Shown here piece by piece: positions 5,078 to 50,786 of a DNA stretch of 64,000 nucleotides. Position 1 is the first letter of the stretch; each line of letters begins with the position of its first letter. The translations under genes were made by a program, and so were the position numbers. The DNA is taken from the NCBI GenBank assembly GCA_947184155.2, contig CAMXCT020001735.1, positions 618,001-682,000 on the forward strand, written 5' to 3'. The notes below the pieces were generated by a model, which was not told the DNA's origin, made no database searches, and saw only the letters and a list, made by a program, of their open reading frames with translations. This DNA is from Cladocopium goreaui (Eukaryota; Sar; Dinophyceae; Suessiales; Symbiodiniaceae).

Positions 5078-5409
5078 CCGTTCGGCCGCTTCATTTTCTT
5101 AATTCATTGGTATGTTGACAGTATGCAGCAGCCTCTCTTTGTACAATATAGGCTACACAACTTGTGTGCTCTGGCAGGTAAAAAGATGTCTTGTCATCCT
5201 TCGAACATGTGCAACACTTGCCTTCTCAATATCGTTCTTCATGCTTGCACTTACACTTTCATATGCAATTCCTTGTGTGTGCGTGAATGCGTTTGATTGC
5301 AAACAGTTGCAAATGATTGTGAGCTTTTTGCTGTAGAAATATTTGTCTCAAGTAGAAGTTCAAGGACAATCTATCATCAGCTTATTCTGTAGAGCCAAAT
5401 CTTAAAGGC
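5078..5409. other. Intergenic spacer before the transposase gene
   Basis: 332 bp of AT-rich spacer. The longest open frame (74 codons, from 5112) has no recognisable content. No promoter motif can be assigned. Confidence 0.4.
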
Positions 5410-15831: not shown

Positions 15832-16058
15832 TGCAGACACGCACAAATCAAGAAGTGTAACACTCCCACACATGTCCATTTTCAATTAATCCTGCGGTTG
15901 ACGTAGCCGCTTTTTTACTTCAAGCATTGGCGAAAAACCATTGCGGCTGCGAGCTGCGATTGCCGAGTTGGAGGTGCCCGGAACTGGAAGTATCTGTTCT
16001 TATCAGTGTGACAACGAGGGGAACTACAACATAACGATCCAGGTTGGTGGCTTCTTTA
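15832..16058 (+). repeat. copia-1 5' LTR
   Basis: 227 bp starting TGCAGACACGCACAAATC and ending GGTGGCTTCTTTA. It is identical by eye to 23767-23993. It begins with TG but does not end in CA. It must contain the promoter; no TATA-type element is obvious. Confidence 0.95.
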
Positions 16059-16076
16059 GGTTATGAGCCCAAGCTC
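16059..16076 (+). promoter_or_regulatory. copia-1 candidate primer-binding site
   Basis: GGTTATGAGCCCAAGCTC abuts the 5' LTR. Its reverse complement contains GGGCTCATAACC, the form of a tRNA-Met anticodon stem-loop (CAU anticodon) and not a tRNA 3' CCA end. Priming from an internal or half tRNA-Met is known for Drosophila copia and Ty5. Confidence 0.6.
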
Positions 16077-16095
16077 TTCCCTGTGATCAACTCCA

Positions 16096-22000: not shown

Positions 22001-23715
22001 TGGGCACTGAAATCACTAAACATGAACATGATGGCCGTGATGTTTGGCTGCTGTCGCAAGAGTCCTACGTGCGGGACTTAGTAGCACAAGGTGGTGAGGA
22101 AGTGAAAAAGCGAAAAATCCCCATCACACGCGATCAAAGTTCCCAGCTTGAGGAGCCTGAAGAAGGAGTGACTCCAGAGAAGGTGAAAAGAGCTCAGAAA
22201 GAGGTAGGTGAACTGCTTTGGTTAGTGACCAGAACGAGACCGGAGCTGATGTTCGCAGTCTCAAAAATGGGCTCCGCTACCACAAAGTCACCAGACTTGG
22301 TCCACGAGATCTACAAGCAGGTCTTGGGCTATTTGCTGGTCCACCCAATGGATGGTTTGGTCTTCGATGTGAAAGCAGAAGGCCCTTGGCTTTTGGAGGC
22401 GTTTGCAGATTCCTCATTTTCGCCACAAGGTGAGGAATCCCACGGAGCATTCGTCATCAAGCTCTGTGGATGCCCCATTTTTTGGCGATCAGGACGTCAA
22501 TCCCTGATCAGTCTGTCAACAGCCGAAAGCGAGATGATGGAATCAATGGAAAGTTTGGTAGCTGGCGAGTCAGTCGCCGTCATAGCAGAAGAACTTCAAG
22601 GTGATCTCTTGAAGATGGCTTGGAGTGACAACCAAGCCGCCACTGTCATTCTCACAGCAGATGGTGGGAATTGGAGAACCCGCCACCTGAAGATGAGGGC
22701 GCTGGCAGCACGTCAATTGATTGCCAGCGGCGAATGGACACTTCGCCACAAAAATGGCGAACACATGGAAGCTGACCTGGGCACAAAAGCACTCACAAGT
22801 GCCAGGTTTGAAATGTTGAAAAAGGAGCTTGGAATGGCCGCCAACACCGGCGCTGAGGCCCACCAAGAAGGGGGTGGCGAGCCCGCGCCTGATGCCGGAG
22901 CGCCAACCGCTGGAGGAGAGCGGGGGGCAATGCCCGCATCAAATGGCCATCCAAGCCCAAAGATCGAAGCAGCGAAAGCAGTTTTGAAAGTGGTGCTGCT
23001 TTTGGCCGCTGTTCAAGGTGCACAATCAGAAGGTGAAGAAAACAAAGGAGGAAAAGAAGAAGAAAGCTTTAAAGAATTTGAAGTTTTCATGGTGGTTTTC
23101 AGCTTGCTGGTGGTCGTGATGACCATGGCCTTTCAATGGATGTGGAAGGTTGGAGTAAGTCGTGTTTTTCCCAGTCTGCCAACGCAGGAGGGAGAGGATG
23201 GCCGAAGTCACCCTGCTGAAGTTGATGCTGCGCCACAAGCTGAAGAACCAGAAGTCCCCGAAGAATTGAGCTCTGCTACCACATCAGAAAGTAGCAGCAG
23301 TTCACAAGAAGAAGATCCACTAGGAGTTCAACGTGCCATTCAGGATATCAATCGAGAAGAAGCTGAGCTCTGGAATCGAATCAGGGCTGACCCAGCATGT
23401 TTTGAGAATGAGTATAACGAGTTCGAGAACGAGCAGCTCTCAACTCGAGTTTTCAGAACGCGCTATGGAGTAGTTTATCATGGATCTCTGGAGTGCGGCT
23501 ATCTCAGAGCTCCACAAACTGGAAGGGCATTCGAATTTCACTGGTGTTATCTTTGCAGGTACGTGGCGATGAAAACGAGGGGACCACCACCACCAGGAGT
23601 AGTCTTTTATTTGAATGGAGTTGGCGCTGCAGTGCACACAAGTCTGAGATGTCCTTTTTTGCGAGACTCAAAGGAATTTCCAATGTGTGCTCAGTGCCGT
23701 CCAAATTTCAATTAG
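16096..23715 (+). CDS. copia-1 gag-pol polyprotein with methyltransferase-like domain (2539 aa)
   Basis: ATG at 16096, only 37 nt after the 5' LTR; one frame to the TAG at 23715. Gag: Gln/Glu-rich N terminus, KEAADHQ repeats (about 266-300), a CCCH finger (from Cys688) and a CX2CX4HX4C zinc knuckle (720-733). Protease: VDSGAT (Asp842). Then a C5-methyltransferase-like domain (about 1016-1215): VVHLFAGP, GGPNC with Cys1084 at the catalytic position, ALEQP and GGKASKRTTFSTN. Integrase: HHCC finger (His1271, His1276, Cys1283, Cys1286) and core Asp1310, Asp1458, Glu1493, with a long acidic insert between the two Asp residues. RT: TLDVKTAFLNA (Asp1815) and YVDDM (1929-1933). RNase H: Asp2105, Glu2144, Asp2178. 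The C-terminal 290 residues add a hydrophobic segment (about 2296-2309), a strong membrane helix (about 2331-2351) and a duplicated H-x4-C...C-x2-C motif (HGSLEC...CYLC; HTSLRC...CAQC). Confidence 0.95.
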   Translation: MTSLYGRRRATQQELQQGEREMQAAQERLERENQELPLEDQGQGLGGEQKDLVAAETSVVASEEKGEKESETVKPIQDVSKSPSAVEPTPASEKGKVGSAAPSVVPISPQYHRQDATGGALDSSGQGVGAATPQVTQPQSSRDGMESVANRPDVGFAATPQTPLFTNEQLMQWRMLEEQAPLLLPRRLDMMYNMPLQRPQFMEFEEARLIEERRRHEELRQHVESLMMENRRLSKRVEELESRQVDAAEEYHTPDQKGIEPVSRRKEAADHQKEAADHQKEAADHQKDAADPQSKAVDPQRKDEDLQRRLGAYGREVESRQQKFEDCPREAADPPKVGSSSIPKTSGGCRPPEDPPKEAGRPPKGSSTGQGEFTEKSLEFMALMIDSMKEMQRKMTEGKEEAGMVKGMEIVRTGIPDLPVLPSWNPTTGPLQLGDWLLMVGPLVADMSASSEEWWKLTIKEAEAWYKDHMQLAPLEKIQHGHATPSCLQDTKWQRLERRVSVMVLQSVPEQVKEQLVASRRLEVFGIITYLHLLYSPGGVTEKQLLLKTLEDPAEVSVLSEAPAALRRWLRWKRRTLEIGATPPDPTLLLKGLNRLVRKVVDPNRELQFRVSLVRSSLGVDTTPSDLNITQFANHLLAELEQASLSEKRSSSSTKDQPKLKKIEDSQGGREGRGYEREEGQQKERQRCKFFFTDAGCRKGKECRFLHDITKEEMAEKRRCWTCGAVDHLSPSCPRKIGSESPKKGKALKAEGGKTGQQSQKDGSGSPTSSTTSMKDLLEEASKLLKSYQEPPTSSSTTSSEKKESEGGSKEEILERLHQQIKSMKTFKLLQIGRGTHQGLVDSGATHPLRPLRRFEDATAYPVVQVTLANGTTEKLKISPGGSMVSEVKDIEPIIPMGLLTSRLKCQVQWSDEGISIKHPRRGLLPVCKDGGCPQVPRALAMELIEELEEKKEGLKLKGAQLQKEFAWMCDLVDTHPVFSQLPKDIKEELKVHPGDWAKLPGNQRMRKTWKRDGFVVHLFAGPSEGFTLARAFQQQGSDPEEIIEIDILRGKDHDVLSNDGVFGALLTACFQGKMKGLVGGPNCRTRSILRHFPIPGNPEAPRPIRRWGGEEFGIFDATTEEKKKLFEDDLLLWRMVLLFVVSEYVRVAMEKERKTWFALEQPASPRQYNEDVVSIWDTPQWKAIAKEFDLHELTYNQKDLGGKASKRTTFSTNMDLELAGNYMKCQSQGEVGNSKELSRWSPGTMSMVAKGLVSALWRTPKIKALSWQEHVQFGHVPYRRDCAVCQQTLQQCLPHRRVKWPTPGVLSLDTAGPLKKGKDVDSSTSKYFLCGALVWAVPAGTEKMKQPDEVEDEEAPMIEVEGRAEPEEAEEVRGEEKPKKGRPRKEGEGDEFPDAPADLEEQQRKEVEEAKQELEFRTFRLAFPLPSKSATVVTNAAMDMILQLRTEGYHIGRIHSDRGHEFAKTFLSWARNRGIHVTKTPGDDPRVNGRAEVAIKNTKTQIRKVLKAAEVGPEYWPLALRYANAVNRSIRRDETPNWPPFLSDVVVRKRRWNRDDFRPTMEVAKYVAPSKEDHGHWIIGENGQVRLTRCVLRKVEAVPTEEQWVAIERQVEDAQTLRRRLRNKAAVRRLEGEVEESEEKKRKQRIWKVIEEESKSMVGDDEETIMEEMKLICDLRKVAMEEEVPEEEVLQTKIVSQREVSKEWEKWKMPAEDEIQALLNEKEAMRSINKEQLEEMIRAAEERGVKVEFLPSKLVFTKKPGKNGGKRKMRWVICGNYESRSDQESNFSSGADSTAFRVMLVMCARNQWQAGTLDVKTAFLNAFIDQETSSNLIIVKPPSLLVEKGCLPIDIFYLPERAVYGLRRSPKLWGDCRDDVLRVLEVKIPKGEGEEKLRLSPMEAEPNLWMILKQCDLSEDEEPQLKGLLMTYVDDMMIAGDESVVTSVMKELQSKWTTSTPDRVSSVPIRFLGTEITKHEHDGRDVWLLSQESYVRDLVAQGGEEVKKRKIPITRDQSSQLEEPEEGVTPEKVKRAQKEVGELLWLVTRTRPELMFAVSKMGSATTKSPDLVHEIYKQVLGYLLVHPMDGLVFDVKAEGPWLLEAFADSSFSPQGEESHGAFVIKLCGCPIFWRSGRQSLISLSTAESEMMESMESLVAGESVAVIAEELQGDLLKMAWSDNQAATVILTADGGNWRTRHLKMRALAARQLIASGEWTLRHKNGEHMEADLGTKALTSARFEMLKKELGMAANTGAEAHQEGGGEPAPDAGAPTAGGERGAMPASNGHPSPKIEAAKAVLKVVLLLAAVQGAQSEGEENKGGKEEESFKEFEVFMVVFSLLVVVMTMAFQWMWKVGVSRVFPSLPTQEGEDGRSHPAEVDAAPQAEEPEVPEELSSATTSESSSSSQEEDPLGVQRAIQDINREEAELWNRIRADPACFENEYNEFENEQLSTRVFRTRYGVVYHGSLECGYLRAPQTGRAFEFHWCYLCRYVAMKTRGPPPPGVVFYLNGVGAAVHTSLRCPFLRDSKEFPMCAQCRPNFN

Positions 23716-23756
23716 CGGTTTGAGTCATGGATGTTGTAGAACCTGACGGTTTCTAC

Positions 23757-23766
23757 AAAGGGGGAG
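23757..23766 (+). promoter_or_regulatory. copia-1 polypurine tract
   Basis: AAAGGGGGAG lies directly before the 3' LTR, the expected place for plus-strand priming. Confidence 0.85.
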
Positions 23767-23993
23767 TGCAGACACGCACAAATCAAGAAGTGTAACACTC
23801 CCACACATGTCCATTTTCAATTAATCCTGCGGTTGACGTAGCCGCTTTTTTACTTCAAGCATTGGCGAAAAACCATTGCGGCTGCGAGCTGCGATTGCCG
23901 AGTTGGAGGTGCCCGGAACTGGAAGTATCTGTTCTTATCAGTGTGACAACGAGGGGAACTACAACATAACGATCCAGGTTGGTGGCTTCTTTA
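23767..23993 (+). repeat. copia-1 3' LTR
   Basis: 227 bp, no difference seen from 15832-16058. Followed by the AAAAC target duplication. Confidence 0.95.
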
Positions 23994-37965: not shown

Positions 37966-38357
37966 GTAAAAGAAAACGCAGTCAGCTGCACCCAAGTGTC
38001 CCAGATGGGGAAACTGTCGCTTTCTATTGCAAACGAGTTCATTGATTTCATACGTGGATGTTTAGTCTAGCAATGGGGACCTGACTTATAAGGTGACCTT
38101 TCCCTACTTGGGGGGGGGTGCACTTCCACTAATAAGTGACGTGGTTATAGAACCATAGTCAGAGGGGTTGTATCATGATGTATCCTAACTTGTGATAGTG
38201 AAAATCCCAAAGATTGTCAGATTCTTTTTTTCCCATATGCAAGTTTAGCAGGGGCACTTGTTTCCAACCCAATCGCATTGAACATTCGCATAATAAATCC
38301 CATAGCTGTTCATAATTATCCCATAATTATCCCATAATAACCATAATTATCCCATAG

Positions 38358-38500
38358 TGTAAAAACTCCTGCAGTAAAACCATGTATTGTACATATCATC
38401 GTACTACTCTGTAGCGTTGGTTCAAAAGAGCTGAGTGCTTAGCGGTTTTGTGGTTCACCCCCATTGTAAGTAACATTGGTGGCTGACCTTGTAAAATACA
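38358..38500 (+). repeat. copia-2 5' LTR
   Basis: 143 bp starting TGTAAAAACTCCTGCAGTAA and ending CTTGTAAAATACA. Identical by eye to 50500-50642. Unusually short. Confidence 0.95.
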
Positions 38501-38520
38501 GGTTATCAGCCGTAGTCTCA
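38501..38520 (+). promoter_or_regulatory. copia-2 candidate primer-binding site
   Basis: GGTTATCAGCCGTAGTCTCA abuts the LTR. Its complement begins with GGCTGATAACC, shaped like an anticodon loop with GAU. It differs from the copia-1 site (GGTTATGAGCC) at one base in the first 11. It could also be a degenerate match to an initiator-Met 3' end. Confidence 0.45.
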
Positions 38521-38530
38521 CTACTTTGCT

Positions 38531-41500
38531 ATGGGGACCCCAACTGACCTTCCTCTCGCCGTTCCAGGGTCAGGTCCATCGGCCGTCGCCGTGCCCAATG
38601 TGGCCGGGGGCAACCCCGAGCCGATGGATGACGAAACAATGTTCCAACCCGTTGTAGCGTACTTCACCTTCATACAAAACAACCTTTCCCAAATCACCAG
38701 TGGGAACACCCTGCAAGTCATGAGGGAAGCTGAACAGAGGCACCTTCAGATAATGCATGGAGTAGTTGACTCAATTCGAAACGAATGGTCAAGTAGACTC
38801 GTAATGCAGGAGCAGGAGTATGAGCAAAGGTTGCAGGAGGTTGAAGGTAAGGCCATCAGTGCCGTCAACGAGGAAAGGAAACGAGGCGACGAGTTAGAGG
38901 TCAGGTTAAATCAGGCTCAGGCATCGCATGACAAAAGAGTAGAGGATTTCAAGGCAGAGGCAAACACAAAGCATGATCAGAAAATTGCAGAGGAAAGGCA
39001 ACGTATCACTAGTGAATTCGAAGCTTCCTATGCACAGACAGTTGAACATGCAAAGAATGCCATAGCTGCCACGAAGAAGCAATATGAAGATCAGGCTGCA
39101 ATCGATCAGGCCAGGTCCATCAGTTTGAGGACTGAGTTCGAGAACTACAAGAAGGAGATGGCCGACAAGATCAACGAGGCAGCGGCTCAGAACCTTAGCC
39201 TTCAGGACCAAATCGATGACCTTCAGGAGCAGTTAAAGCATGTTGCCAAAGCGCAGCATGCCTCCGTTCCGAAAGCATCCGTCCAGAACGCTGAGCCGGC
39301 CGCTACCACTAGCGTGCCCCACTTCAATATTGCCACTCCCAAAGCATCCGATGCACAGGCTGCCAAAGGCAGTGATGAGCCGATCCATGAGTTGAAAACG
39401 CCTGCAGTGTTGGCACAAGAAGCAAAAGCCAAGTTGGATGAGCTGCTCAAAGGTGGCAGTCCCAAGCAAAAGCCGGCCGTCGGCAACGACCAGCCTCAAT
39501 TGCCAACGCAGTCAGGGTTTTTCACTCCCACTGAAGCTATCAAAACTCCCCCAAATGACTCTCCTAAGAGCGTAACCAAGCAACAGCAAATGATGGGTCC
39601 CTCAGATCTTATTGAATTGGTAAAAGCCTTAACCCAAAGGGAAGAAAAGGATAAGCCAAAAACTAAGGAGGCCGAAATCATCAAGTTGAACAACATGCCC
39701 GCTCCGGAGTTGTATAGGACTTGGAAGAATCATGTCAGGGATGAAGTGAAAAGCTGTTCAGATCGCCCGGATGAGGCATGGCTCTGGCTCAACGAGGTGT
39801 ACGATCAAGAGTGCACCAGAGAGCAGTTGGAGAAGAGACTCCAAGATCCTGGAAAGTTCCTCACGCTGGATACAAAGTTATCAGCAGCGCTCACGCGCTC
39901 AGCCGGAGGGGACCTCGCAACTAGGATCTTGAATTTCAAAGAGCAGCAATCCCGAAAAGGCATCCAGGTCAGGGGAAGGTATGTTCTGCTCATGTTTGAG
40001 GACTTCTTCAAGACATCAGAAGAAGCAGGTAGCCTTTACAGAGTAGAAGATCTTTTGGGTGTTGTCAAAGTAGGCGATACTGTCCAGGATCTCCGAAGAT
40101 TCATCAACAAGTGGGATGCTACCCTAGCTGGCATGGCTGTCACTCCCGATGATGCTGTGTTAAGGGACATCTTGTTGAGGCAGATCCGACCAAGTCAGTT
40201 GCTGAAATATGACATCGAGGTATTTGATCGTGCACATGAGAAATCCCACGAAAAGTCTTATAGTTTTCTTCACCAATCCATGAAGAACTTGATCGACCGT
40301 GAACGATTGAGGGAAAACAGGAACCGCATCGCGGAGAAGAACAAGGCTGGGATCAAGGACACAAAGGCCGCACCCGCCAAAGGTGATGGTCGCGGTGGCC
40401 GAAAGGGCTCTCCAAGTCGTGGTAGATCGCAGGAACGAGGTGGCAAAGGTGACAAGATTTGCTATAAGTTCCAAAAGGGTACCTGTGATAAGGGGAAGAA
40501 GTGTCCATTTAAGCATGTCAAAGATGATAAATCTCGAACTCAATCACCCAGAAGAACCAAGACACGTTCACCATCAAGGGGCAATAAAGATGATAAGGGG
40601 AAGAAGATGTCCAAGGAAGAGATGGCCAAAACCCCATGTATCTATCATGCCCAGGGAAAGTGCAGACGTGGTGACAAATGTTTTTATAAACATGATGACA
40701 AAGCTGCTGCCGCCACCAAAGACACCAAAAGGGCCAATTCACCCGCTCCCAAAAAGAAGAGCAAGGATTCCACAGCCGCTCCATGCCTGATTCAGAAGTT
40801 TGCCTGCATCGTCCGAAAACAGCCGAAGGCAACTTCGTGCTCTGATGAGTCAAGTGTCAGCATGAAGCGTCTTAGATTCCGAAAGGCCCCACATGTGATC
40901 GAAGTGAAGGCAGTCGGTCGTCAAGTCCCAGTCAAGCACCGTCCGAGAGAGTTCACTAAGGTGTACAAGACAGCTGAAGATGTTCCAGTTTCATCAAAGG
41001 TTGAACAACATGAGGCTCAGGTACGTGCTAGACAGCTTCAAGAAACTGTGGAACTTCATGATTCAGATGTTGCACCTAGTTGTGGGTTTTGTTGTTGGAA
41101 TGAGGACACATGTGACATCACATGCAAAGAGTGCAGATTCATCAGCGGTCCCAAAGCTCTTAGAGACATTGGTCGTTTTCCGTCAATTGCCACAGCTGCG
41201 CCAAAGGCCGGCGTTAGTTGGCTTGTCGACTCAGGTAGTGAATCCGATCTTGTGTCCAAAGGAATGCTGAGGGATGTCAGTGCCAAGAACTGCCGTGCAG
41301 CCGAGCATCCGATTTCCTTAGTCACAGCCAATGGTTCGACCGAGGCAAATGAGGTTGCCGATGTAAAGCTGTCCGCATTGCCAGATCCTGTGCATCCGTA
41401 TGTACTTGACCATACCCCAGCTGTGCTCTCCGTAGGAACAAGATGTGTAGATCAGGGTTACAGTTTCGTATGGCCTGCCAATGGCAAACCAATCCTAGTC

Positions 41501-44500
41501 CGTCCAGATGACAAGGTCGTCCAGCTCAAGATCGAAGGTCATGTCCCAATCTTGGATGATAGTTGCAAGGTTTATCCCAAAGACCAATTTCAAAAGGATA
41601 AGCATCTTAGAAAGTTGTTTGCAATGCCGACCTCACGGTCGAGCTCGAAAGCCAAGCGGGACGAAGCCCAAGATGAAGAGCAATTGGATGAGCTGGTGGA
41701 GGATGACGCTCAGCAGGAGTATATCCGAAGCCGCAAGACTGAGGATTTGTTGGCCGAAGCTGCAAGTACCCAACATCAGTACACACATTTCCCCAAGAAC
41801 CCCTTTTGCAGAACCTGCCAACGAGCAAGAATGATGGCTCCTCAGGCACGAAAGAAAGGTGGTCAGAAGAGAATCGAGACTGAAGTGTTTGGTGACCACA
41901 TCATTGGGGATCATGTCATCATCAAGAAAAATGTAGAAGAGGGTTTCAGGGGGGAGCAAGTTGCATTGGTGTTGAAAGATCTGCACACCCAATATCGGTA
42001 TGTCTACCCTAGCCAGTCCAAGGACTCACAAAGCTGTGTTGATGGTTTGAATCACTTCATTGGATCAAAGGATGATGTTCAAGTTGTGTATACTGACAAT
42101 TCCCCAGAGTTGATCAGGGCCATCAAGGATTTGGGTTACAGACATCAAACATCAATTGAATATGTAGATTCATCAAAGTCTTTTGCTGAACGCGAAGTTC
42201 GTCAGATGTTGGAAGGTGCCCGGAGCAACTTGTTGCAATCAGGACTTCCTTTGAAGATGTGGCCATTGGCCATGCAGCATCATGCGACCGCGATCAAAGA
42301 AAGCCCCCAGCTTGACGGCAGTGAATCCCCTTGGCAACTCAGGTTTGGTGAAGAGTTCCCTGCAATGCACATTCCATTTGGTGCCAAAGTGTTGTTCTGG
42401 AATAACCCCAAAAGGTTGGATAACACATCAGGTAAGCTCTCCCCAACAGCAAATGAAGGAATTTTCCTTGGGTATTACATCCAACCAGGTCATGATTGGA
42501 AGGGTGAATACTTAGTTGCCAAGTTGGAAGCCGCAGATTATCATGTCAACTGGGGTGCACTGACAATCCAAAGAACAAAGAGGTTGGAATTGCCATCCGA
42601 GGGTTTCATCTTTCCTTTGAAAGCTCTGATTGACTCGAAAGCACCCAAAGCCGATCGCCTTGAGGATCAGGTCATTCCGCAGACACCCAAAGCTGTGCCA
42701 CTTGAGTCCAGTTTGCATCCGCCACAAGATGAGTATGAATACGAGCCAGGAACGCCTCTACCAGCCGACAGCGATGTCGAGCCTGATGCACCCGAAGGGC
42801 CCGTATTTCCAGATCTCAAATTGACCCCCAAAGGTGAAATTATTCCAGATGGACATCATTGGGATGGTCACCGGATTGTACGTAACTACAAAGGTTCAAA
42901 GCGTCCGGAGGGGATCGACTCAGAACTGTGGAAGATGTTAGGACCTCAAGATAGGAAGTTGATCATCGAGGAAGAAGCAAAGAAAGCAGCCAAAGAGCAG
43001 GAGGAAAAGCCAGCATCGTCATCTGGCAGCAAGGGCAAAAAGAAGAAGTCTTCACCGGCCCGGCTTGAGGCAACTCAATGCCCTCCTGCAACTGCAAAGC
43101 TCGTAGGCAATGTTTGGGAAATTGTTCCAGCCACTTCCCAAAAGTTTTCCGTGCCGGCAATGCCAAAAGCTGCCGCGCCTGCCACAATTGAGCACCGGCC
43201 TCGAATTAGAGAGCTCGTCCGAGAGAAGATCAAGGAACTTGAGTTCAAGGTCGCACTCGAGCTTTTCGCTTCAGTTGCTAGGCTTGTATCAAAAGATGAA
43301 ATTGCCAGCAACCCCAAGGCTAAGGCCGCCCTTGATAAGGAGTGGGATAATCTCCGTAATAAGGGTGTTTGGGATGAGAAGCGTGTTCGTGAGTGCCGCG
43401 ACATAGTAGCTGAGGCTCGTCGCAATGGCCAAACTGTGCACCTAGGTCGAATCTTTGAGGCTTGCTATGAGAAGGGTTCTGAATTGCCTGAATCAGACCC
43501 TCGCCGGAAGTTCAAGGGTAGGACGGTTTTCCAAGGGAACAATGTCAGGGACGAGAATTCCGATCACGCACTCTTCAACGAGTTAGGCTCTTCCCCAGCA
43601 TCCATGGAAGCAGCAAAGCTGCTAGATGCTTTCGGTAGTCAGCCCGGGTTCTCCAAACAGCAGGCAGATGCAATCCAAGCCTACATACAAGCCCTCTTCA
43701 CAGGGGTGCCCACATGGTTGTCACTTCCACGCAACAGATGGCCCAAAGATTGGGAGAAAAAGTACTGGCAACCCATGGTTCCTATGTTACTTGCCCTTTA
43801 TGGCCATCCTGATAGCGGGGGTATTTGGGAAAATCATCTCAATAGCCGTGTGGTGAAACAGGGTTGGAAGCAAATTTTACCTGACATTTGGCATTCCATT
43901 TTTCATCATCAAGAGCTCAACTGTCTTTTGGTTGTGTATGTAGATGACTTCAAGATGGCTGGCCCCACCGCCAATCTGGAAAAGGCATGGGCAAGCGTCA
44001 AGGCTGCAGTGAACATTGGTGATCCTGAGCCATATGACCGCTACTTTGGCTGTACGCACCGGGAATTCCAAAACATCCGGTTGCCTTCGCAGGCACACCC
44101 TTTTGCATTTGCCTTTGAAGCCAAGAAGTCAGCAGCCGCACAACACAGAACACAAGACTGGTGGGAGCACGATGAAATCAACATGGCATGGATCAGACAC
44201 CACATACAACCCCGAAAAAGATTGTACCAGCCGGTTGATGAGGGGGGGGATGTAACTTGTCAAAATACGAGTCGCATAACTTTCTTTGACAAAAAGGTCA
44301 CATTGAAAAGTTGTCCTAGCATCACCGACGGGACAATCAGGGGGGCTATGATGTTTATACGGATGATTGGAAAACATCTAGCAATCAAACAAATGAATTC
44401 TGGACAGGAAAAACAGTTTTCTGTTATGGACATGACGGACCTGACAAATTCAAGCAGTTTGCAATGGCAAGTAAAGCCAGACCAGGACCACATCGCGATA

Positions 44501-44560
44501 AACGCGAGGCGAAAAAGGAAGCCAAGGCCTCTAAGTTCAGGGGGGTTGAACACGCCGTGA
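38531..44560 (+). CDS. copia-2 ORF1: gag, protease, integrase, reverse transcriptase (2009 codons)
   Basis: ATG at 38531, 30 nt after the LTR. Gag: long coiled coil (about 60-240), a capsid-like helical region (about 385-610), and two CCCH fingers (from Cys644 and Cys703). Protease: LVDSGSES (Asp900). Integrase: His1082...CRTC finger, GDH (Asp1122 or 1127), YTDN (Asp1189) and AEREV...LEGAR (Glu1222 or Glu1228). RT: KFKGRTVFQGN, DAIQAYIQA (Asp1713) and YVDD (1803-1806). The frame loses sense after about 44345: beyond the G6 run (44340-44345) the -1 frame carries the expected sequence (GGYDVYTDDWK) into ORF2. The last 70 codons of this frame are therefore probably out of register. Confidence 0.9.
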   Translation: MGTPTDLPLAVPGSGPSAVAVPNVAGGNPEPMDDETMFQPVVAYFTFIQNNLSQITSGNTLQVMREAEQRHLQIMHGVVDSIRNEWSSRLVMQEQEYEQRLQEVEGKAISAVNEERKRGDELEVRLNQAQASHDKRVEDFKAEANTKHDQKIAEERQRITSEFEASYAQTVEHAKNAIAATKKQYEDQAAIDQARSISLRTEFENYKKEMADKINEAAAQNLSLQDQIDDLQEQLKHVAKAQHASVPKASVQNAEPAATTSVPHFNIATPKASDAQAAKGSDEPIHELKTPAVLAQEAKAKLDELLKGGSPKQKPAVGNDQPQLPTQSGFFTPTEAIKTPPNDSPKSVTKQQQMMGPSDLIELVKALTQREEKDKPKTKEAEIIKLNNMPAPELYRTWKNHVRDEVKSCSDRPDEAWLWLNEVYDQECTREQLEKRLQDPGKFLTLDTKLSAALTRSAGGDLATRILNFKEQQSRKGIQVRGRYVLLMFEDFFKTSEEAGSLYRVEDLLGVVKVGDTVQDLRRFINKWDATLAGMAVTPDDAVLRDILLRQIRPSQLLKYDIEVFDRAHEKSHEKSYSFLHQSMKNLIDRERLRENRNRIAEKNKAGIKDTKAAPAKGDGRGGRKGSPSRGRSQERGGKGDKICYKFQKGTCDKGKKCPFKHVKDDKSRTQSPRRTKTRSPSRGNKDDKGKKMSKEEMAKTPCIYHAQGKCRRGDKCFYKHDDKAAAATKDTKRANSPAPKKKSKDSTAAPCLIQKFACIVRKQPKATSCSDESSVSMKRLRFRKAPHVIEVKAVGRQVPVKHRPREFTKVYKTAEDVPVSSKVEQHEAQVRARQLQETVELHDSDVAPSCGFCCWNEDTCDITCKECRFISGPKALRDIGRFPSIATAAPKAGVSWLVDSGSESDLVSKGMLRDVSAKNCRAAEHPISLVTANGSTEANEVADVKLSALPDPVHPYVLDHTPAVLSVGTRCVDQGYSFVWPANGKPILVRPDDKVVQLKIEGHVPILDDSCKVYPKDQFQKDKHLRKLFAMPTSRSSSKAKRDEAQDEEQLDELVEDDAQQEYIRSRKTEDLLAEAASTQHQYTHFPKNPFCRTCQRARMMAPQARKKGGQKRIETEVFGDHIIGDHVIIKKNVEEGFRGEQVALVLKDLHTQYRYVYPSQSKDSQSCVDGLNHFIGSKDDVQVVYTDNSPELIRAIKDLGYRHQTSIEYVDSSKSFAEREVRQMLEGARSNLLQSGLPLKMWPLAMQHHATAIKESPQLDGSESPWQLRFGEEFPAMHIPFGAKVLFWNNPKRLDNTSGKLSPTANEGIFLGYYIQPGHDWKGEYLVAKLEAADYHVNWGALTIQRTKRLELPSEGFIFPLKALIDSKAPKADRLEDQVIPQTPKAVPLESSLHPPQDEYEYEPGTPLPADSDVEPDAPEGPVFPDLKLTPKGEIIPDGHHWDGHRIVRNYKGSKRPEGIDSELWKMLGPQDRKLIIEEEAKKAAKEQEEKPASSSGSKGKKKKSSPARLEATQCPPATAKLVGNVWEIVPATSQKFSVPAMPKAAAPATIEHRPRIRELVREKIKELEFKVALELFASVARLVSKDEIASNPKAKAALDKEWDNLRNKGVWDEKRVRECRDIVAEARRNGQTVHLGRIFEACYEKGSELPESDPRRKFKGRTVFQGNNVRDENSDHALFNELGSSPASMEAAKLLDAFGSQPGFSKQQADAIQAYIQALFTGVPTWLSLPRNRWPKDWEKKYWQPMVPMLLALYGHPDSGGIWENHLNSRVVKQGWKQILPDIWHSIFHHQELNCLLVVYVDDFKMAGPTANLEKAWASVKAAVNIGDPEPYDRYFGCTHREFQNIRLPSQAHPFAFAFEAKKSAAAQHRTQDWWEHDEINMAWIRHHIQPRKRLYQPVDEGGDVTCQNTSRITFFDKKVTLKSCPSITDGTIRGAMMFIRMIGKHLAIKQMNSGQEKQFSVMDMTDLTNSSSLQWQVKPDQDHIAINARRKRKPRPLSSGGLNTP

Positions 44561-47500
44561 AGAACAAAGCTGGCGTCATGGCCAAGCCCGTGAACTTAGT
44601 GAGGTATGACATGAGTGATTTCCTGGGGTCCTGTGTAGAAAATTACTGTAATCTTGCAAAAGTCAGTCCATCGTCCTTGAAAGAGGTGCCAACACCATTC
44701 ACAGATGCTGGCATCGCACGGCCCACACTCAGTGAAGATGAAAAGCCTGGCAAACTTCAGCCAGTGGCCAGCAAGATCTTGATGAAGATACTATTTGCCG
44801 CAAGAATGGCAAGGTTCGACTTGTTGCGTGCCACACAAAGCTTAGCATCAAGAGTGACAAAATGGTCCATAGAATGCGATGTTGCCTTGCACAGATTGGT
44901 GTCATACATTCATTGTACAAAGCACCATTTCCTAGAGGGTTTCATTGGGGATGCCTTTGATGAATGCCAACTCTGGCTTTTTGCCGACGCAGACCATGCA
45001 GGCGAACATGATAGCAAGAGTACCACTGGCAGTGCCATAGTGCTTGTAGGCCCCAACACGTATTACCCCTTAAATGCATTCAGTAAGAAACAAACGGTTG
45101 TTGCCATATCTTCAACTGAGGCTGAGGTAGTTGCCGCAAATCACAGCATGAGAGCTGAGGGCATTCCAATGCTGGCCCTGTTTGAGCAGTTGAACCTTTT
45201 CAAGAAGCTACAGGGTAAGCCAGCTCGCGACGCCGCGAAGCCCCAAGAAGATGTTGTGTTCACTAGGATCGACCCCGAAATTGACGAAATCCGTAATGGG
45301 AATGTCGATACAGGTTGTAGTGTTGCGGACATCAACTCCCTCAAGGCCAGTTTCCCTGAATTTTATCAAGTCAAATTTATGGAGGACAACCAAGCGACTA
45401 TCACAGTCATGTCCACCGGTTCATCAGCATCCATGAGACACATGAACAAAACCCAAAACATCAACTTCAAATGGTTGAAACAACAATTTGAATGTAAACA
45501 GTTCGATCTTCTCAACGTAGGGACCAGTTTCCAAGTTGCGGACATTCTTACAAAACCTTTTACCCGGCCAGCCCTTTGGTTGCATGCCATTCATCTCATT
45601 GGCATTGGCCCGACAAAGGTGGAAGAAGCAGCAGCCCGCCACACCGCGGCGCCGAACTCCACTAAGGTGCCAAAACTAGCAACCGCTGCCGGGAATCAGG
45701 GGGGCTCCCAAAAGTCTTTTAAGCCCAGAATGTTGATCGAATTTTGCTGCTCTGATGATTCAAAGCTTAGTACCCCAAGAAAGTCCAATGAAGATTGCCA
45801 CTGCATTAGGGTTACCGAAAAGGAAGATGGTACCACTATCAGCTGTCGGCAACGGCTAGCCTCCCAAATCCAAGATTTCAGAAATGATTTCAATGACGGC
45901 ACTTTGATACTTTATGCATCATTGCCTTGTGTTGGAGGTAGCCCATGGGGGAACGTGAATGGCCTTACTGTTGAGGGTCAAGAAAGAATCAAAGAGCAAC
46001 AAAAACAGTTTACCAAGTTGTTCAAATCTTTTGTCAAACTTGTGGATGAAGTTTATGATGAACGAACCTTGATAGCATTTGAACTGTCCAAGAATTGCAA
46101 ATATTGGAGATGGCCGATGGTTAGAAAATTCCTCATAGAACGATCCATGACTACTCATCACTTTGATGGTTGCATGTTGGGTGTTCTTGGAAACAACGGT
46201 CAACCAATGAAGAAAAGTTGGACCATTGCAGGAAACTTCAAAGAACTTGCGGTGTTAGACTCATTCAAATGTGATGGCAAACATGAGCATGATCAAAGTA
46301 GGGGCAAAGCTCTTAAACTTGCTGAGAACTATACCTTCAAGTTGACCGACATGCTCCATGAGTGTTTCCGGGTAGCTGTGGTGGGCCAAACATCCAAAAG
46401 GATTTCACCCGCTGTCATTCGTGCTTGTCCTGCTAAAATGGCTGACTCGCGATTTGCCACAGCACACCCGGCCAGCCGCGAGGCTGCGCTCGAAGCCACA
46501 CGTGAGGCTAACAAAGAAGCATGGTTGCTCCTTCACAATCGCATTTTGTTTGCATTGGCCATGCGCAATGAAGGTGAGAATCAGGTTGCTCAGGACCTCG
46601 TGGATGGTTTGATGACCGAATGGACGCCGGCCTCGGCCCTGAGGTTCTACGGTCGAGAGGATCCGAGTGCAGAATATCTTAGCCTCTGCTTTTTGCCAAA
46701 GGAGTCCCACATCGAAAAGATCATGTTGCCAGAGATGCCTGTCAATCAAGTAATCTGGATCTTAGTCTCTGACTCGTCATGTGCACTGATCACAGGGCGT
46801 AGGAAAACACTTAAGAAGTACGATCTGTCCGAGCATTACCGGCAGCGTAAACCTAAGTATGTGACTGAGTTCATCCATGAGATGCTTTGGGGCAAAACTC
46901 TGCAGAAGTTGGTCAAACGTGGGATTGAATTGGCCGCGGACGCCCGCGAGCGCTATCCTGATGCCCGCATCAACCTGCATTTGTCCTGGTTCGGAAATGA
47001 ATTGGTAGGTGAGGATGGGATTGCCCAAAATCCAAATTGGCCGTACGACGGCCCCAACGGGCACTGGCCCACGATCATGGATGATTGTGAGCGCCATTTG
47101 ACTTGGTTTGTCAACAAGGCCCGGGAGTTGGATTTGCAATCGGCCGGTCTCACGACCGCGCCTTGGTCCGCTGACTATGGCATCCATCCTATCTTTGACC
47201 AGTTCTTTGATGCATTGGAGCCAAAGTTCAAAGCTCTAACCAGCAGCCTGCAAGGGCTTGCCAATCCGAAGTATCCGTGGCTGCGTGCGAAGGGGTACGC
47301 CGATGCGATGGAATTCAGAGACCAGTGGCATTTCGCCAACTCTGAAGAAAATCGCACGCGCCTCGCCGCATATTGGACAGCGACTTTGTTCGCTATTGAC
47401 TGCGGATGGCGGGTTGGCCGAATTGGTTTGGAGCTTGCTCAGTGTGGCCAGGAAACATGGGATGATTTGCGGAGGAACATGAGCGCCGTCCTCGACGAGC

Positions 47501-47673
47501 TGCCAAGATCCTATCAGGAGACATGTGCAAACATCACCAAGTTGCTTTTTGGAGAGTCCCGACGACACATCACGCCGACGGGCAGGTCATTCACCAAGGA
47601 GGACGTTGAAGCTCAACAACCAGACCGAGGACTACATCGACGTCAAGACGATGCCTTCTGGAACTTTTGCTGA
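44320..47673 (+). CDS. copia-2 ORF2: RNase H, methyltransferase-like domain, possible SGNH-like domain
   Basis: The frame is open from 44320; its first ATG is at 44464 and residue numbers here count from it. RNase H: FADADHAG (Asp175), SSTEAE (Glu219), MEDNQAT (Asp308), then VADILTKPF. A second domain (about 423-590) has MLIEFCCSDDS, LYASLPCVGGSPWG (Pro488-Cys489, motif IV-like) and MKKSWTIAGN (motif VIII-like), as in dcm-type C5-methyltransferases. It is unlike the one in copia-1 and lies after RNase H. A third region (about 760-910) has VSDSSCAL, SWFGNELVG and ADYGIHP, resembling blocks I, III and V of SGNH/GDSL hydrolases, a weak call. It overlaps ORF3 by up to 149 nt; reading changes by +1 near 47600. 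Confidence 0.8.
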   Translation, partial: HHRRDNQGGYDVYTDDWKTSSNQTNEFWTGKTVFCYGHDGPDKFKQFAMASKARPGPHRDKREAKKEAKASKFRGVEHAVKNKAGVMAKPVNLVRYDMSDFLGSCVENYCNLAKVSPSSLKEVPTPFTDAGIARPTLSEDEKPGKLQPVASKILMKILFAARMARFDLLRATQSLASRVTKWSIECDVALHRLVSYIHCTKHHFLEGFIGDAFDECQLWLFADADHAGEHDSKSTTGSAIVLVGPNTYYPLNAFSKKQTVVAISSTEAEVVAANHSMRAEGIPMLALFEQLNLFKKLQGKPARDAAKPQEDVVFTRIDPEIDEIRNGNVDTGCSVADINSLKASFPEFYQVKFMEDNQATITVMSTGSSASMRHMNKTQNINFKWLKQQFECKQFDLLNVGTSFQVADILTKPFTRPALWLHAIHLIGIGPTKVEEAAARHTAAPNSTKVPKLATAAGNQGGSQKSFKPRMLIEFCCSDDSKLSTPRKSNEDCHCIRVTEKEDGTTISCRQRLASQIQDFRNDFNDGTLILYASLPCVGGSPWGNVNGLTVEGQERIKEQQKQFTKLFKSFVKLVDEVYDERTLIAFELSKNCKYWRWPMVRKFLIERSMTTHHFDGCMLGVLGNNGQPMKKSWTIAGNFKELAVLDSFKCDGKHEHDQSRGKALKLAENYTFKLTDMLHECFRVAVVGQTSKRISPAVIRACPAKMADSRFATAHPASREAALEATREANKEAWLLLHNRILFALAMRNEGENQVAQDLVDGLMTEWTPASALRFYGREDPSAEYLSLCFLPKESHIEKIMLPEMPVNQVIWILVSDSSCALITGRRKTLKKYDLSEHYRQRKPKYVTEFIHEMLWGKTLQKLVKRGIELAADARERYPDARINLHLSWFGNELVGEDGIAQNPNWPYDGPNGHWPTIMDDCERHLTWFVNKARELDLQSAGLTTAPWSADYGIHPIFDQFFDALEPKFKALTSSLQGLANPKYPWLRAKGYADAMEFRDQWHFANSEENRTRLAAYWTATLFAIDCGWRVGRIGLELAQCGQETWDDLRRNMSAVLDELPRSYQETCANITKLLFGESRRHITPTGRSFTKEDVEAQQPDRGLHRRQDDAFWNFC

Positions 47674-48904
47674 GCCTCCCAAAGATGACCCTCCAAAGGC
47701 CGCCGGCGACGGCGAGCCCGCTGAATCCAGCAGAGCAACAATCCTGGTCCAAACGGCTGAGGTCTTGTTGAAGTCGCGACCGACAGCAGCACCAGTCCCA
47801 TTGGATGAGCCCGCAGATGACAAAAGAGCCACATCCAGCCAGTACCAGCCGCAGGCAACTGCGCGCTTAGAGGAACATGCATCCGGCCACGTGAAAGCAT
47901 ATTGGATGGAAGAGCATTTGCCTGAATACCAATATACAATGGTGACCAATGCAGACGGGGACGATGTACCCCGGATCCTCTTTGAAGGTACGGCCTATGA
48001 ACTGGAACTGCTATCGGCATCCGACGTCGAGACCATTGCTGGCCAGACTCGCGTCGACAAGAAATTCTCCGACTTTGCAACCCGTGTCAATAAAGTTTGC
48101 AGGGGGCATGGATCCTGTGCCAAGGTGCCAATGGACAAAGACCTTTGGATCGACTTGGAGGATTTTGCCAAAGCCTTCCGCAAGGAAGTGCCCCCAGACG
48201 TTTTCATCACCGTCGCAAACCTTTTTGGCACTGCGATGAAGATCGACAAGCATGGCAAGAGTAGGTTCCAATTCTTGTGTGCAAAGATCTCCCATTTCCG
48301 TGTCGACAATGGCCTAGGCATGCCGTATTATCCTGTGAAAATCCGTGCAATTCAGGGTCATTCCCAAGCTGCCTTGAAGTCCGCCGGGGGCCTCTATGCC
48401 AATTCAACCATGGTGTATTGCTCAGACCAAGTTTCCCCCGAGCGAAAAGCCGCCTTCACCGGCGTGCCCTTGTGTGCCATGACTGAGGTCCCTGAAGTTG
48501 TTTTTCATCGCACGATGAGAAGCAGCTGGAAGAGCATCGCACAGAACGGCCTGATCCCAGGCGGCGGTGACACAGTCAACAGTGGCCGTGCTCATATCTA
48601 CATGGCAGAACACTGTATCGGCACACAGGGATATCGATCTGGATTAAGAGCAAAATGTCCAGTCGAAGTCAAAATCGCAATGCGGCAAGCAGTTGAAGCT
48701 GGTGTCATCTTTAGTCGCACAGAAATGGATGGTATTTTGTGTTCAGAACGCATCCCACCTCAGTTTCTGGTCAGCATCTCAGAAGATGGACAGGTGCTTT
48801 GGTCCCGCGCCGAGAGCAATCCCGCGCCGAGAGCAATCTCGAGCCCAGCACATGGACAGGCGCGGAATCAGCCTCAGCACCGAAATCCAGAGCGGTCACC
48901 CTGA
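47525..48904 (+). CDS. copia-2 ORF3: Tpt1/KptA-like RNA 2'-phosphotransferase domain
   Basis: The open frame starts at 47525 without ATG; the first in-frame ATG is 47651 (MPSGTFAEPP). Residue numbers count from 47525. An acidic/Pro linker is followed by a Tpt1-like N-terminal helical part (about 175-265, DFATRVNKVCRGHGS...WIDLEDFAKAF). The family signature KIRAIQGHS is at 272-280. Then come VVFHRTMRSSWKSIAQNGL (from 326), RAHIYMAEH (about 355-363) and VIFSRTEMDGILCSERIPPQ (about 394-412), which match the Tpt1 patterns LYHGT, HVHLS and FY.SxNGVWLT..VPP. Tpt1/KptA transfers an internal RNA 2'-phosphate to NAD+, and related proteins ADP-ribosylate nucleic-acid ends. The usual Arg-His pair (LRH) is not obvious, so activity is uncertain. 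The frame continues into ORF4 through a 17-bp duplication. Confidence 0.8.
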   Translation: MQTSPSCFLESPDDTSRRRAGHSPRRTLKLNNQTEDYIDVKTMPSGTFAEPPKDDPPKAAGDGEPAESSRATILVQTAEVLLKSRPTAAPVPLDEPADDKRATSSQYQPQATARLEEHASGHVKAYWMEEHLPEYQYTMVTNADGDDVPRILFEGTAYELELLSASDVETIAGQTRVDKKFSDFATRVNKVCRGHGSCAKVPMDKDLWIDLEDFAKAFRKEVPPDVFITVANLFGTAMKIDKHGKSRFQFLCAKISHFRVDNGLGMPYYPVKIRAIQGHSQAALKSAGGLYANSTMVYCSDQVSPERKAAFTGVPLCAMTEVPEVVFHRTMRSSWKSIAQNGLIPGGGDTVNSGRAHIYMAEHCIGTQGYRSGLRAKCPVEVKIAMRQAVEAGVIFSRTEMDGILCSERIPPQFLVSISEDGQVLWSRAESNPAPRAISSPAHGQARNQPQHRNPERSP

Positions 48905-50289
48905 CTGCCCGAGATGATGCAAATGACGACCCAATGGATGACACCAGCACGGGGCGACCCGATGCCAGATCCACTGATGATGCCAGATCCACCGATGATG
49001 CAGCCACTGCCCCAATGCAAGTTGACCAGCCGCCCGCGAGGGCGCGCCGTGTTTACATTGCACCAAAGTACTGCGAACCTTTCATGGGCTCCTGCCCCCT
49101 CTGCCAGGTCGAGTACGTCAGTGGCCAAGTGACTTGTACCACATGTGGATTTGAGCCACTCCCAGTGGACGAAAGTGGCGAAACAAAAGAGGCCGACAAA
49201 CCCAACAGGAGGACCCGTATCCTTGAACGGCGAATGCAGAGTCTCGCCGGGTTCGGAATGTTTGGGAAAATGAGCGGCAGCTTGTTGACGGCTTTGACAA
49301 ATGAGCAAGCCGATCTTCTTCGCCGGGAACTGGGCCCCAGGGGGATCACATCCGTGGAATCAGCAGTCCTCAAAGACTGCCGCGACAGACACAGACGTGC
49401 AAAGGCACTGGGCTACGAGGACGTTGAAGATCGCTATACCAGTGACGTCACGTTTTGTGACCGCATCCACGGGGAGGGGAAAGGCCTGCAGGACTGTATC
49501 TTTGACGATATGTTCGCATACGCCAACCTCCCGGATCCACCCAGAACCAGAGCTCAGATCTCGGCTGGCGTCGCCGCCAATGCCCAAAATGAAAACTGCT
49601 TATCAAAGTTGATTTTCATGTCCCAACCTCGAGGTGTGGAAGGGTTCCCAGTTGAGTTCCGAAAAACATGGAAGAAAACCTGGGGTTTCATGTTCGGCCG
49701 CCACATTTTTACAGAGGATGAATATGTCAGCTACATTGGCCGTCGTGGCGCATTCCGTGGCCTGCTGACCTGGAAGGGCACCGTCCAAGTTCCTTTTGAT
49801 GGCACTCTTGAATTCCTCGAAAAGCTGTATGAGGAAAACCTTCCATTGGTTCGGGGCAACCTTGAACGCAAAGAGAAGCAGAGCGCCGCTGCAAAGGCTG
49901 GAGGTCCTGGAGGTCAAAAGGCCGACCCCACGGTCGCGCCCACCATTGAGCGAAAGCGCAAAGCCGAAGTTGATGCATCCGCCACCGCACATGATGACAC
50001 AGCCGCCTCAAGCTCTGCTCGCGCAGACGCCTCGCACGCTGATGCCTCAGTTGATCCCAACAATGCACCATTTCTTGCACCCGAACCACCAACATCCAAA
50101 GCAGGAGCACGACCATTCTTGGAGCCTGAGACGCCGCCCACTGCAAAAGCAGCAAGCACAGTCACATCGAGAGTTGGAATCGTGATCACTATGGTGCACG
50201 TCGAGAATGGAGTTTCTGGCGTGGGGCTTGGTATTACCGTGACGAGGCCGGCGGCCGTTGGATCTATTGGAACCGCAGGTAGACCATGA
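48739..50289 (+). CDS. copia-2 ORF4: zinc-ribbon, charged C-terminal region of the polyprotein
   Basis: The frame is open from 48739 without an initiating ATG in its first part; by the duplication argument it is the continuation of ORF3. It holds a CPLC...CTTC zinc ribbon (first Cys about residue 119), a long charged helical region with FPVEFRKTWKKTWGFMFGRH, and a low-complexity Ala/Pro/Asp tail. I do not recognise a family. TGA at 50289; 210 nt remain to the 3' LTR. Confidence 0.7.
   Translation: MFRTHPTSVSGQHLRRWTGALVPRREQSRAESNLEPSTWTGAESASAPKSRAVTLTARDDANDDPMDDTSTGRPDARSTDDARSTDDAATAPMQVDQPPARARRVYIAPKYCEPFMGSCPLCQVEYVSGQVTCTTCGFEPLPVDESGETKEADKPNRRTRILERRMQSLAGFGMFGKMSGSLLTALTNEQADLLRRELGPRGITSVESAVLKDCRDRHRRAKALGYEDVEDRYTSDVTFCDRIHGEGKGLQDCIFDDMFAYANLPDPPRTRAQISAGVAANAQNENCLSKLIFMSQPRGVEGFPVEFRKTWKKTWGFMFGRHIFTEDEYVSYIGRRGAFRGLLTWKGTVQVPFDGTLEFLEKLYEENLPLVRGNLERKEKQSAAAKAGGPGGQKADPTVAPTIERKRKAEVDASATAHDDTAASSSARADASHADASVDPNNAPFLAPEPPTSKAGARPFLEPETPPTAKAASTVTSRVGIVITMVHVENGVSGVGLGITVTRPAAVGSIGTAGRP
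48803..48836. repeat. 17-bp tandem duplication causing the ORF3/ORF4 frame break
   Basis: TCCCGCGCCGAGAGCAA occurs twice head to tail. 17 bp is not a multiple of three, and counting it once puts the ORF3 frame exactly into the ORF4 frame. Confidence 0.9.
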
Positions 50290-50490
50290 TTTTCTTTTGT
50301 TGCATAGCGCAAGATGCGGCATGGTAATGTGCCTTCCTTGCAAAGCTGCACTGGGTTTTACGGGCTTGAGCTTTTTAGAGGGACCTTTGAAAGACTGCAT
50401 AAAATGCTTAAAACCAAACAAACAGATTTGGCTACCCGCGAGGGTATGCTCTTCTGGGTTATTCGTTCTCCGCAGTCGTCCCTGCTCGCC

Positions 50491-50499
50491 CGAGGGGGG
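50491..50499 (+). promoter_or_regulatory. copia-2 polypurine tract
   Basis: CGAGGGGGG directly before the 3' LTR. Confidence 0.8.
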
Positions 50500-50642
50500 T
50501 GTAAAAACTCCTGCAGTAAAACCATGTATTGTACATATCATCGTACTACTCTGTAGCGTTGGTTCAAAAGAGCTGAGTGCTTAGCGGTTTTGTGGTTCAC
50601 CCCCATTGTAAGTAACATTGGTGGCTGACCTTGTAAAATACA
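50500..50642 (+). repeat. copia-2 3' LTR
   Basis: 143 bp, no difference seen from 38358-38500; followed by CATAG. Confidence 0.95.
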
Positions 50643-50786
50643 CATAGATGGATAGTTATCCCATAATTACCCCATAGTAATCCCATAATTAGCCCATAAT
50701 TAAGCCCTAAAACCATAATTATCCCATAGCTATCCATAGTTATACATATTTTTTTTAGCCCCAAAACTAAGCCCTAAACCCTGCAG
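50643..50786. repeat. CCCATAATTA tandem tract, insertion target of copia-2
   Basis: Repeated TTATCCCATAATTA(C/G)CCCATA units. The same repeat stands left of the element at 38309-38357, so it was split by the insertion. Confidence 0.8.

Follow-up and report, generated by a model that had tools for sequence, protein, structure and literature searches.

The DNA analysed here, referred to as the window, is a stretch of 64,000 nt from Cladocopium goreaui (GCA_947184155.2, contig CAMXCT020001735.1, positions 618,001 to 682,000, forward strand). It contains a complete LTR retrotransposon of the copia type, designated copia-2 (window 38358-50642), with the LTRs, target duplication, primer site and polypurine tract expected of Ty1/copia LTR elements (Table 1). 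Four ORFs of this element sit in alternating frames. The original prediction, made from the letters of the sequence, placed a domain resembling the RNA 2'-phosphotransferase Tpt1/KptA in ORF3 and placed ORF3 between identical LTRs; the limits of both LTRs, their identity and the CATAG duplication on either side agree with this placement.

Pfam searches returned nothing up to E 0.1 for ORF2 and ORF4, and no integrase up to the same value for ORF1. The protease, the integrase (upstream of the reverse transcriptase) and RNase H, each without a Pfam match, were recognized by eye. As to the reverse transcriptase (RVT_2), weak in ORF1, relatives such as P0063 and P0081 carry PF07727 among their precomputed domains. 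Neither Rfam at gathering threshold nor ARAGORN reported anything in the window, and the spliced leader had no match with three or fewer mismatches. An array of ATAATTATCCC-like repeats surrounds copia-2 (window 38311-38356 and 50652-50743). Elsewhere in the window, three adjacent ORFs at 3099-6759 resemble, by eye, a helicase- or AAA-type ATPase (GCPGVGKT; the AAA match is weak, E 0.093) and a transposase-like protein.

Table 1. Features of copia-2, in window coordinates
Feature	Position	Strand	Basis
Target-site duplication CATAG, 5' copy	38353..38357	.	sequence
5' LTR, 143 bp, TG...CA, identical to 3' LTR	38358..38500	+	sequence
Primer-binding site GGTTATCAGCC, directly after 5' LTR	38501..38511	+	sequence
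ORF1: gag with CCCH fingers, aspartic protease and integrase (by eye), most of reverse transcriptase	38531..44560	+	
Two CCCH zinc fingers (ORF1)	40454..40696	+	Pfam
RVT_2 reverse transcriptase (ORF1), weak	43505..44050	+	E 8.7e-4, 19.4 bits, below curated cut-off 31.6
ORF2: reverse transcriptase end, RNase H, methyltransferase-like and SGNH-like domains	44464..47673	+	
RNase H region	44956..45591	+	by eye; identity 69% in P0062, 71% in P0061
C5-methyltransferase-like fold	45724..46392	+	fold and motifs
SGNH-hydrolase-like fold	46747..47403	+	fold and motifs
ORF3, continuous with ORF2 and ORF4 in relatives	47525..48904	+	ORF list, Pfam, relatives
Tpt1/KptA domain: RNA lobe and NAD+ lobe	48059..48808	+	range aligned in fold comparison
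Arg-Gly at catalytic Arg-His position; His next at 48107-48109	48101..48106	+	alignment
Second catalytic Arg (IRAIQGHS)	48344..48346	+	alignment
NAD+-binding His (FHRTM)	48506..48508	+	alignment
Third catalytic Arg (SGRAH)	48587..48589	+	alignment
Phosphate-caging Arg of NAD+ site (SGLR)	48647..48649	+	alignment
17-nt tandem duplication at ORF3/ORF4 switch	48803..48838	+	sequence
ORF4: zinc ribbon and conserved C-terminal domain	48739..50289	+	ORF list, relatives
Zinc ribbon CPLC...CTTC (ORF4)	49093..49149	+	by eye
Polypurine tract GAGGGGGG, before 3' LTR	50492..50499	+	sequence
3' LTR, 143 bp	50500..50642	+	sequence
Target-site duplication CATAG, 3' copy	50643..50647	.	sequence

Identity of the ORF3 domain

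All four sequence stretches from which a Tpt1/KptA-like domain had been predicted lie in ORF3, in the order given. The profile search proposed as a check gave a significant match to PF01885 at residues 192-407 of this ORF (nt 48098-48745; E 1.3e-12; 48.6 bits against a cut-off of 26). Structure prediction of the Tpt1 part (pLDDT 84.4, pTM 0.77) likewise returned the Tpt1/KptA fold: all 19 of the 19 PDB matches obtained by Foldseek with E<=0.001 were Tpt1/KptA, the predicted fold has both an RNA lobe and an ART-type NAD+ lobe (Foldseek and VIA), and entries for TkoKptA with ADP-ribosylated DNA are among the PDB fold matches. Profile, fold and the relatives described below together rule out a chance match as the origin of this signal and bear out the presence of such a domain inside a copia retrotransposon; its assignment to Tpt1/KptA is almost certain.

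Relatives and organization of the polyprotein

Relatives were collected by a first homology search (50 proteins), a second for which part of ORF2 served as query (60 rows) and a third with a Tpt1 profile (42 matches), and frame counts rest on the 103 proteins from the first two. Single-frame matches among these joined ORF1 with ORF2 in 31, ORF2 with ORF3 in 35, ORF3 with ORF4 in 27, and ORF2, ORF3 and ORF4 in eight. The pol parts thus form one polyprotein, of which the window holds a broken copy; its switch from ORF3 to ORF4 coincides with the 17-nt tandem duplication. ORF3 exists as the open frame originally described, but relatives reading through ORF2, ORF3 and ORF4 rule it out as a natural separate third ORF and identify it as a C-terminal part of the polyprotein. 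Programmed frameshifting is not needed, because relatives are open across these switches, and chimeric assembly is ruled out by preservation of the linkage in relatives listed under other contigs.

When partial matches are counted, nine of 103 proteins have hits in one frame to all three of the profiles built from the relatives (methyltransferase-like, SGNH-like and Tpt1). The original prediction had proposed looking for RNase H and Tpt1 in one element and had named absence of Tpt1 from sister copies as a refutation; relatives do carry Tpt1 in one frame with pol parts. In P0062 a single frame runs from RNase H through Tpt1 (E 1.4e-15) to the C-terminal domain, and parts of RNase H and of Tpt1 share a frame in P0061, P0075 and P0089. 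PF01885 scores exceed the cut-off in P0053, P0057 and P0062 and fall below it in P0075 (17.5) and P0089 (23.5); P0061 has no PF01885 match. P0061 and P0089 align with the RNA lobe alone, which forms the start of the Tpt1 profile, and P0089 has no match to the methyltransferase-like profile. Residues 648-717 of P0089 have by eye the look of a 2-oxoglutarate/iron oxygenase (HTD ... H), a resemblance that Pfam does not back; this stretch suggests that accessory enzymes are swapped like modules.

The Tpt1 profile search added pieces like P0075 (P0105 and others). One of its 42 matches, P0119, is named by its source RNA:NAD 2'-phosphotransferase, and P0142 and P0145 are the only ones that resemble ordinary Tpt1 by eye. 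In a tree built from 44 Tpt1 parts, the group containing the window (36 rows; support 99/96) is set apart from that of P0075 (six rows; 100/98). Because its branches are long and these two rows are its only ordinary Tpt1, the tree does not separate one capture from two. The domain order recurs in both divergent groups, and the cassette therefore looks old and kept. No relatives were found in viral contigs or in one scan of genome contigs.

Enzyme-like folds upstream of Tpt1

Two further regions, lying upstream of Tpt1, have predicted folds like those of a C5-methyltransferase and an SGNH hydrolase. Residue counts, here and for Tpt1, are over the rows that cover the position. For Tpt1 the rows are the matches of one hmmsearch that pass its inclusion threshold (93 sequences including the window, one row each); for the SGNH-like residues, where alone some proteins contribute more than one fragment, there were 58 rows from 54 sequences. 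The methyltransferase-like region keeps the Cys of PCxGG and the Arg of QSR in 30 of 30 rows each and the Glu of FEL in 26 of 26, and the SGNH-like set (Ser, Asn, Asp-x-x-His) is kept in 29/29, 29/30, 36/36 and 33/37 rows for Ser, Asn, Asp and His, respectively. Sequence profiles of both regions yielded no convincing match in PDB or Pfam, so that the two identities are those of fold and motifs, and one of the four Foldseek matches of the SGNH-like model with E<=0.001 was to the unrelated HydG. Both regions are designated only as methyltransferase-like and SGNH-hydrolase-like.

Active-site residues and conservation of the Tpt1 domain

The catalytic tetrad of CthTpt1 comprises Arg18, His19, Arg68 and Arg121; its NAD ribose is bound by His101 and Thr103, and the phosphates by Arg121, Arg139 and Arg140 (PMC6333775). 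Alignment shows that the window copy keeps all three Arg of the tetrad, along with His and Thr at the NAD site and an Arg equivalent to Arg139. Across relatives the first Arg is kept in 40 of 41 rows (Gln in P0059), the second in 50 of 52, the third in 51 of 54 (Lys in P0062 and P0104), the NAD His in 54 of 58 and the SGLR Arg in 47 of 48.

The Arg-His pair of the tetrad, which the original prediction had called unclear, is indeed absent as adjacent residues, but the position itself can be read: the window has Arg-Gly, with a His one residue on. Gly follows the first Arg in 41/41 rows, and His comes next in 28/41. In the alignment, P0062 and P0089 have one residue more before the next conserved Asp than P0142 and P0145 do, which an inserted Gly with the His kept would fit; the window has no such extra residue. 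The alignment equally allows a substitution for Arg-His and a one-residue insertion keeping the His. In the NAD motif HGT, 51 of 58 rows have Arg or Ser for the Gly, and 23 of 58 have Cys for the Thr.

Characterized enzymes indicate what a change at the His could entail: His19 contacts only the junction 3'-phosphate, and loss of the corresponding His in RslTpt1 slows step 2 only threefold (PMC6333775), whereas human TRPT1 with the H41A change no longer ADP-ribosylates 5' ends (PMC6582358). If the His has really been lost, this would favour as substrate an end without a 3'-phosphate, for example a terminal 2'-phosphate.

Compared with P0062, the window is 37% identical over all 254 residues of Tpt1, 32% and 19% in linkers A and B, and 32% over the 28 of 85 residues of linker C that align; the corresponding values for RNase H, methyltransferase-like and SGNH-like regions are 69%, 51% and 29%. 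Compared with P0053, P0099 and P0085, Tpt1 is 77-78% identical and the two flanking linkers 54-61%. The contrast is not uniform, linkers A (35 of 44 residues) and B reaching 86% and 71% in P0053, and it disappears in P0057 (Tpt1 96%, neighbours 88-98%); identity of Tpt1 to P0061 is 25% over 155 of 254 residues. At the protein level, conservation of Tpt1 leans towards purifying selection.

Primer sites of copia-2 and copia-1

A second complete copia element, copia-1 (window 15832-23993), has one ORF of 2539 aa, identical LTRs of 227 bp (15832-16058 and 23767-23993), the target duplication AAAAC and no Tpt1. Its LTRs share no stretch longer than nine letters with those of copia-2 by blastn, and its primer site, GGTTATGAGCC, has 10 of 11 letters as in GGTTATCAGCC of copia-2. 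Allowing one mismatch, this 11-mer occurs at four places in the window on both strands, two of them being the primer sites themselves. The complement of the primer site can be read as an anticodon loop, as of a half-tRNA primer, and presumably fits initiator Met tRNA. Half-tRNA priming is the mode of Drosophila copia and Ty5 (PMC5371799), which copia-2 on this reading would share. On this reading, the one letter by which the two elements differ corresponds to the first base of the anticodon; a tRNA with inosine at that base, copied as if it were G, would account for the copia-2 letter, and the difference could reflect either another tRNA or a mutation. Between protease and integrase of copia-1, as recognized by eye, a region at approximately 19147-19360 (HLFAG..., GGPNCRTRS) has the look of a C5-methyltransferase, with no Pfam match.

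Proposed function and alternatives

As reconstructed from relatives, the pol polyprotein continues after RNase H through C5-methyltransferase-like, SGNH-like and Tpt1/KptA domains to a zinc ribbon and, at the C terminus, another conserved domain. We propose that Tpt1 binds NAD+ and may work inside the element ribonucleoprotein or particle, on a substrate to which the zinc ribbon and the RNA lobe would bind. That substrate would be a phosphorylated end in the RNA or cDNA of the element or in its primer; the likeliest candidate is a 2'-phosphate carried by the element RNA or by the cut tRNA that acts as primer. Processing of this end would allow reverse transcription to start, or keep the RNA usable. 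This overall explanation, in which a pol-borne Tpt1 would bind NAD+ and act on a phosphorylated end of element nucleic acid, is the best available and, judged from sequence, stands at about even chances. The domain is somewhat more likely than not to be still catalytic; that it acts on element or primer RNA ends is put forward tentatively; and it is doubtful whether the proposal holds in its fullest form, in which pol of two divergent copia groups would encode an NAD+-dependent RNA-end enzyme cooperating with a methyltransferase and an SGNH hydrolase on element RNA and a half-tRNA primer.

Several observations weigh against this explanation. Gly invariably follows the first Arg and His is next in only part of the rows, a concern in view of the H41A phenotype; HGT is altered at both Gly and Thr; the third Arg is Lys in two relatives; and the contrast in conservation between Tpt1 and linkers is uneven. 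Some relatives match the RNA lobe only, fall below the Pfam cut-off or have no match. Moreover, Pfam searches of the element turned up neither a 2H nor a ligase or kinase domain. A cut tRNA end would be a possible Tpt1 substrate, but the link to priming is weak since copia-1 has a like primer site without Tpt1, which also weakens primer healing as a certain function. Cleavage by RNase P leaves a 3'-OH. Such a cut, mediated by RNase P, is used by Ty5 (PMC5371799), and with the lack of Tpt1 in copia-1 this implies that primer healing is not a general need.

The same departures, Arg-Gly for Arg-His and replacement of the Gly of HGT, would be expected if the domain were catalytically dead and served as an RNA- or ADP-ribose-binding module. 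We consider this unlikely: the three catalytic Arg, the NAD His and the NAD-cage Arg are nearly invariant across two divergent groups, beyond what binding would appear to need. Somewhat less probable is that 5'-phosphate ends of element RNA or cDNA are capped with ADP-ribose from NAD+ and thereby hidden from host nucleases or ligases. Human and bacterial Tpt1 do ADP-ribosylate 5'-phosphorylated RNA, the human enzyme DNA also, and the mark shields the phosphate from phosphatase (PMC6582358); TkoKptA with ADP-ribosylated DNA is, in addition, among the fold matches. However, it is this 5'-end activity that H41A eliminates in human TRPT1 (PMC6582358), and in the elements the first Arg is followed by Gly.

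A role in counter-defence, by which Tpt1 would repair tRNA, rRNA or element RNA after cleavage by host ribonucleases whose products bear 2'-phosphates once the cyclic phosphate has opened, is less probable again. RNA repair has been proposed for phage KptA and considered for the KptA of a few RNA-virus polyproteins (PMC9503650), but the ligase, 2H or kinase domain sought with Pfam is missing from this element, and no host ribonuclease is known here. The least likely reading, that Tpt1 is a passenger, a captured fragment of a host gene useless to the element, could draw on the frameshifts that break the window copy but is very improbable given the same placement in two divergent groups and the conserved catalytic residues. 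An NAD+-dependent enzyme acting on element nucleic acid ends stays our preferred reading. The fullest form of the proposal, if true, would make this a retrotransposon equipped for RNA 2'-phosphate chemistry, with an Arg-Gly-His catalytic pocket unlike the Arg-His of characterized Tpt1.

Comparison with known systems

The copia-2 domain shares with Tpt1/KptA/TRPT1 (PF01885) the two-lobed fold, three of four tetrad residues and the His and Arg of the NAD+ lobe. It differs in being embedded in a copia pol polyprotein, in having Arg-Gly(-His) for Arg-His and a longer loop before the third Arg, and in the change of HGT to HRT or HSC found in the elements. Selfish elements with an RNA stage provide a parallel: KptA is rare in eukaryotic viruses and present in a few RNA-virus polyproteins, among them those of a picorna-like virus and a nidovirus, which unlike copia-2 are positive-strand RNA viruses and not LTR elements and are likened here by description (PMC9503650). 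The words retroelement and retrotranspos are absent from that article. Captured enzymes are known from retrotransposons; bdelloid rotifer LTR elements, which are gypsy-like rather than copia, offer one case, and we know of no accessory enzymes in Drosophila copia or yeast Ty5. The bdelloid elements encode a GDSL esterase or DEDDy exonuclease, a captured SGNH/GDSL hydrolase or RNA-end exonuclease to be compared with the SGNH-like and Tpt1 domains of copia-2, but do so in a separate ORF3, and the available portion of the report mentions no Tpt1 (PMC5408684). Symbiodinium LINE and DIRS elements and a charophyte Gypsy element with DNMTs are retrotransposons of algal hosts with a C5-methyltransferase, to which the methyltransferase-like region of copia-2 may be compared; the same source states that Copia has no DNMT domain (PMC5890265), and the copia-2 fold is only DNMT-like, with no PF00145 match.

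Searches of open-access PMC literature (bioRxiv lying outside) for Tpt1 or KptA together with retrotransposons, dinoflagellates or copia found no such element described. In PMC9498494, PMC3558436, PMC5124317, PMC4053983 and PMC3549820, which contain both Tpt1 and retrotransposon, Tpt1 stands for a telomere protein (two papers), a transporter (one) or PF01885 in lists of gene annotations (two). The word phosphotransferase is absent from PMC6338049, PMC11453091 and PMC3942190, on retrotransposon accessory domains and on dinoflagellate genomics and ESTs, and a microeukaryote DNMT paper, in the portion available, names copia only as a methylation target (PMC9998398). We found no earlier report of Tpt1 with two more enzyme-like domains in a copia polyprotein, in keeping with the original remark that no retrotransposon was known to carry this domain.

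Among the enzymes captured by retrotransposons, a member of the Tpt1 class was thus not found reported in this literature. If the copia-2 domain is active, NAD+ chemistry would be tied to reverse transcription, and a role of Tpt1 outside tRNA splicing would become testable in a mobile element. Genomes with such elements would show many Tpt1-domain genes that are no host enzymes.
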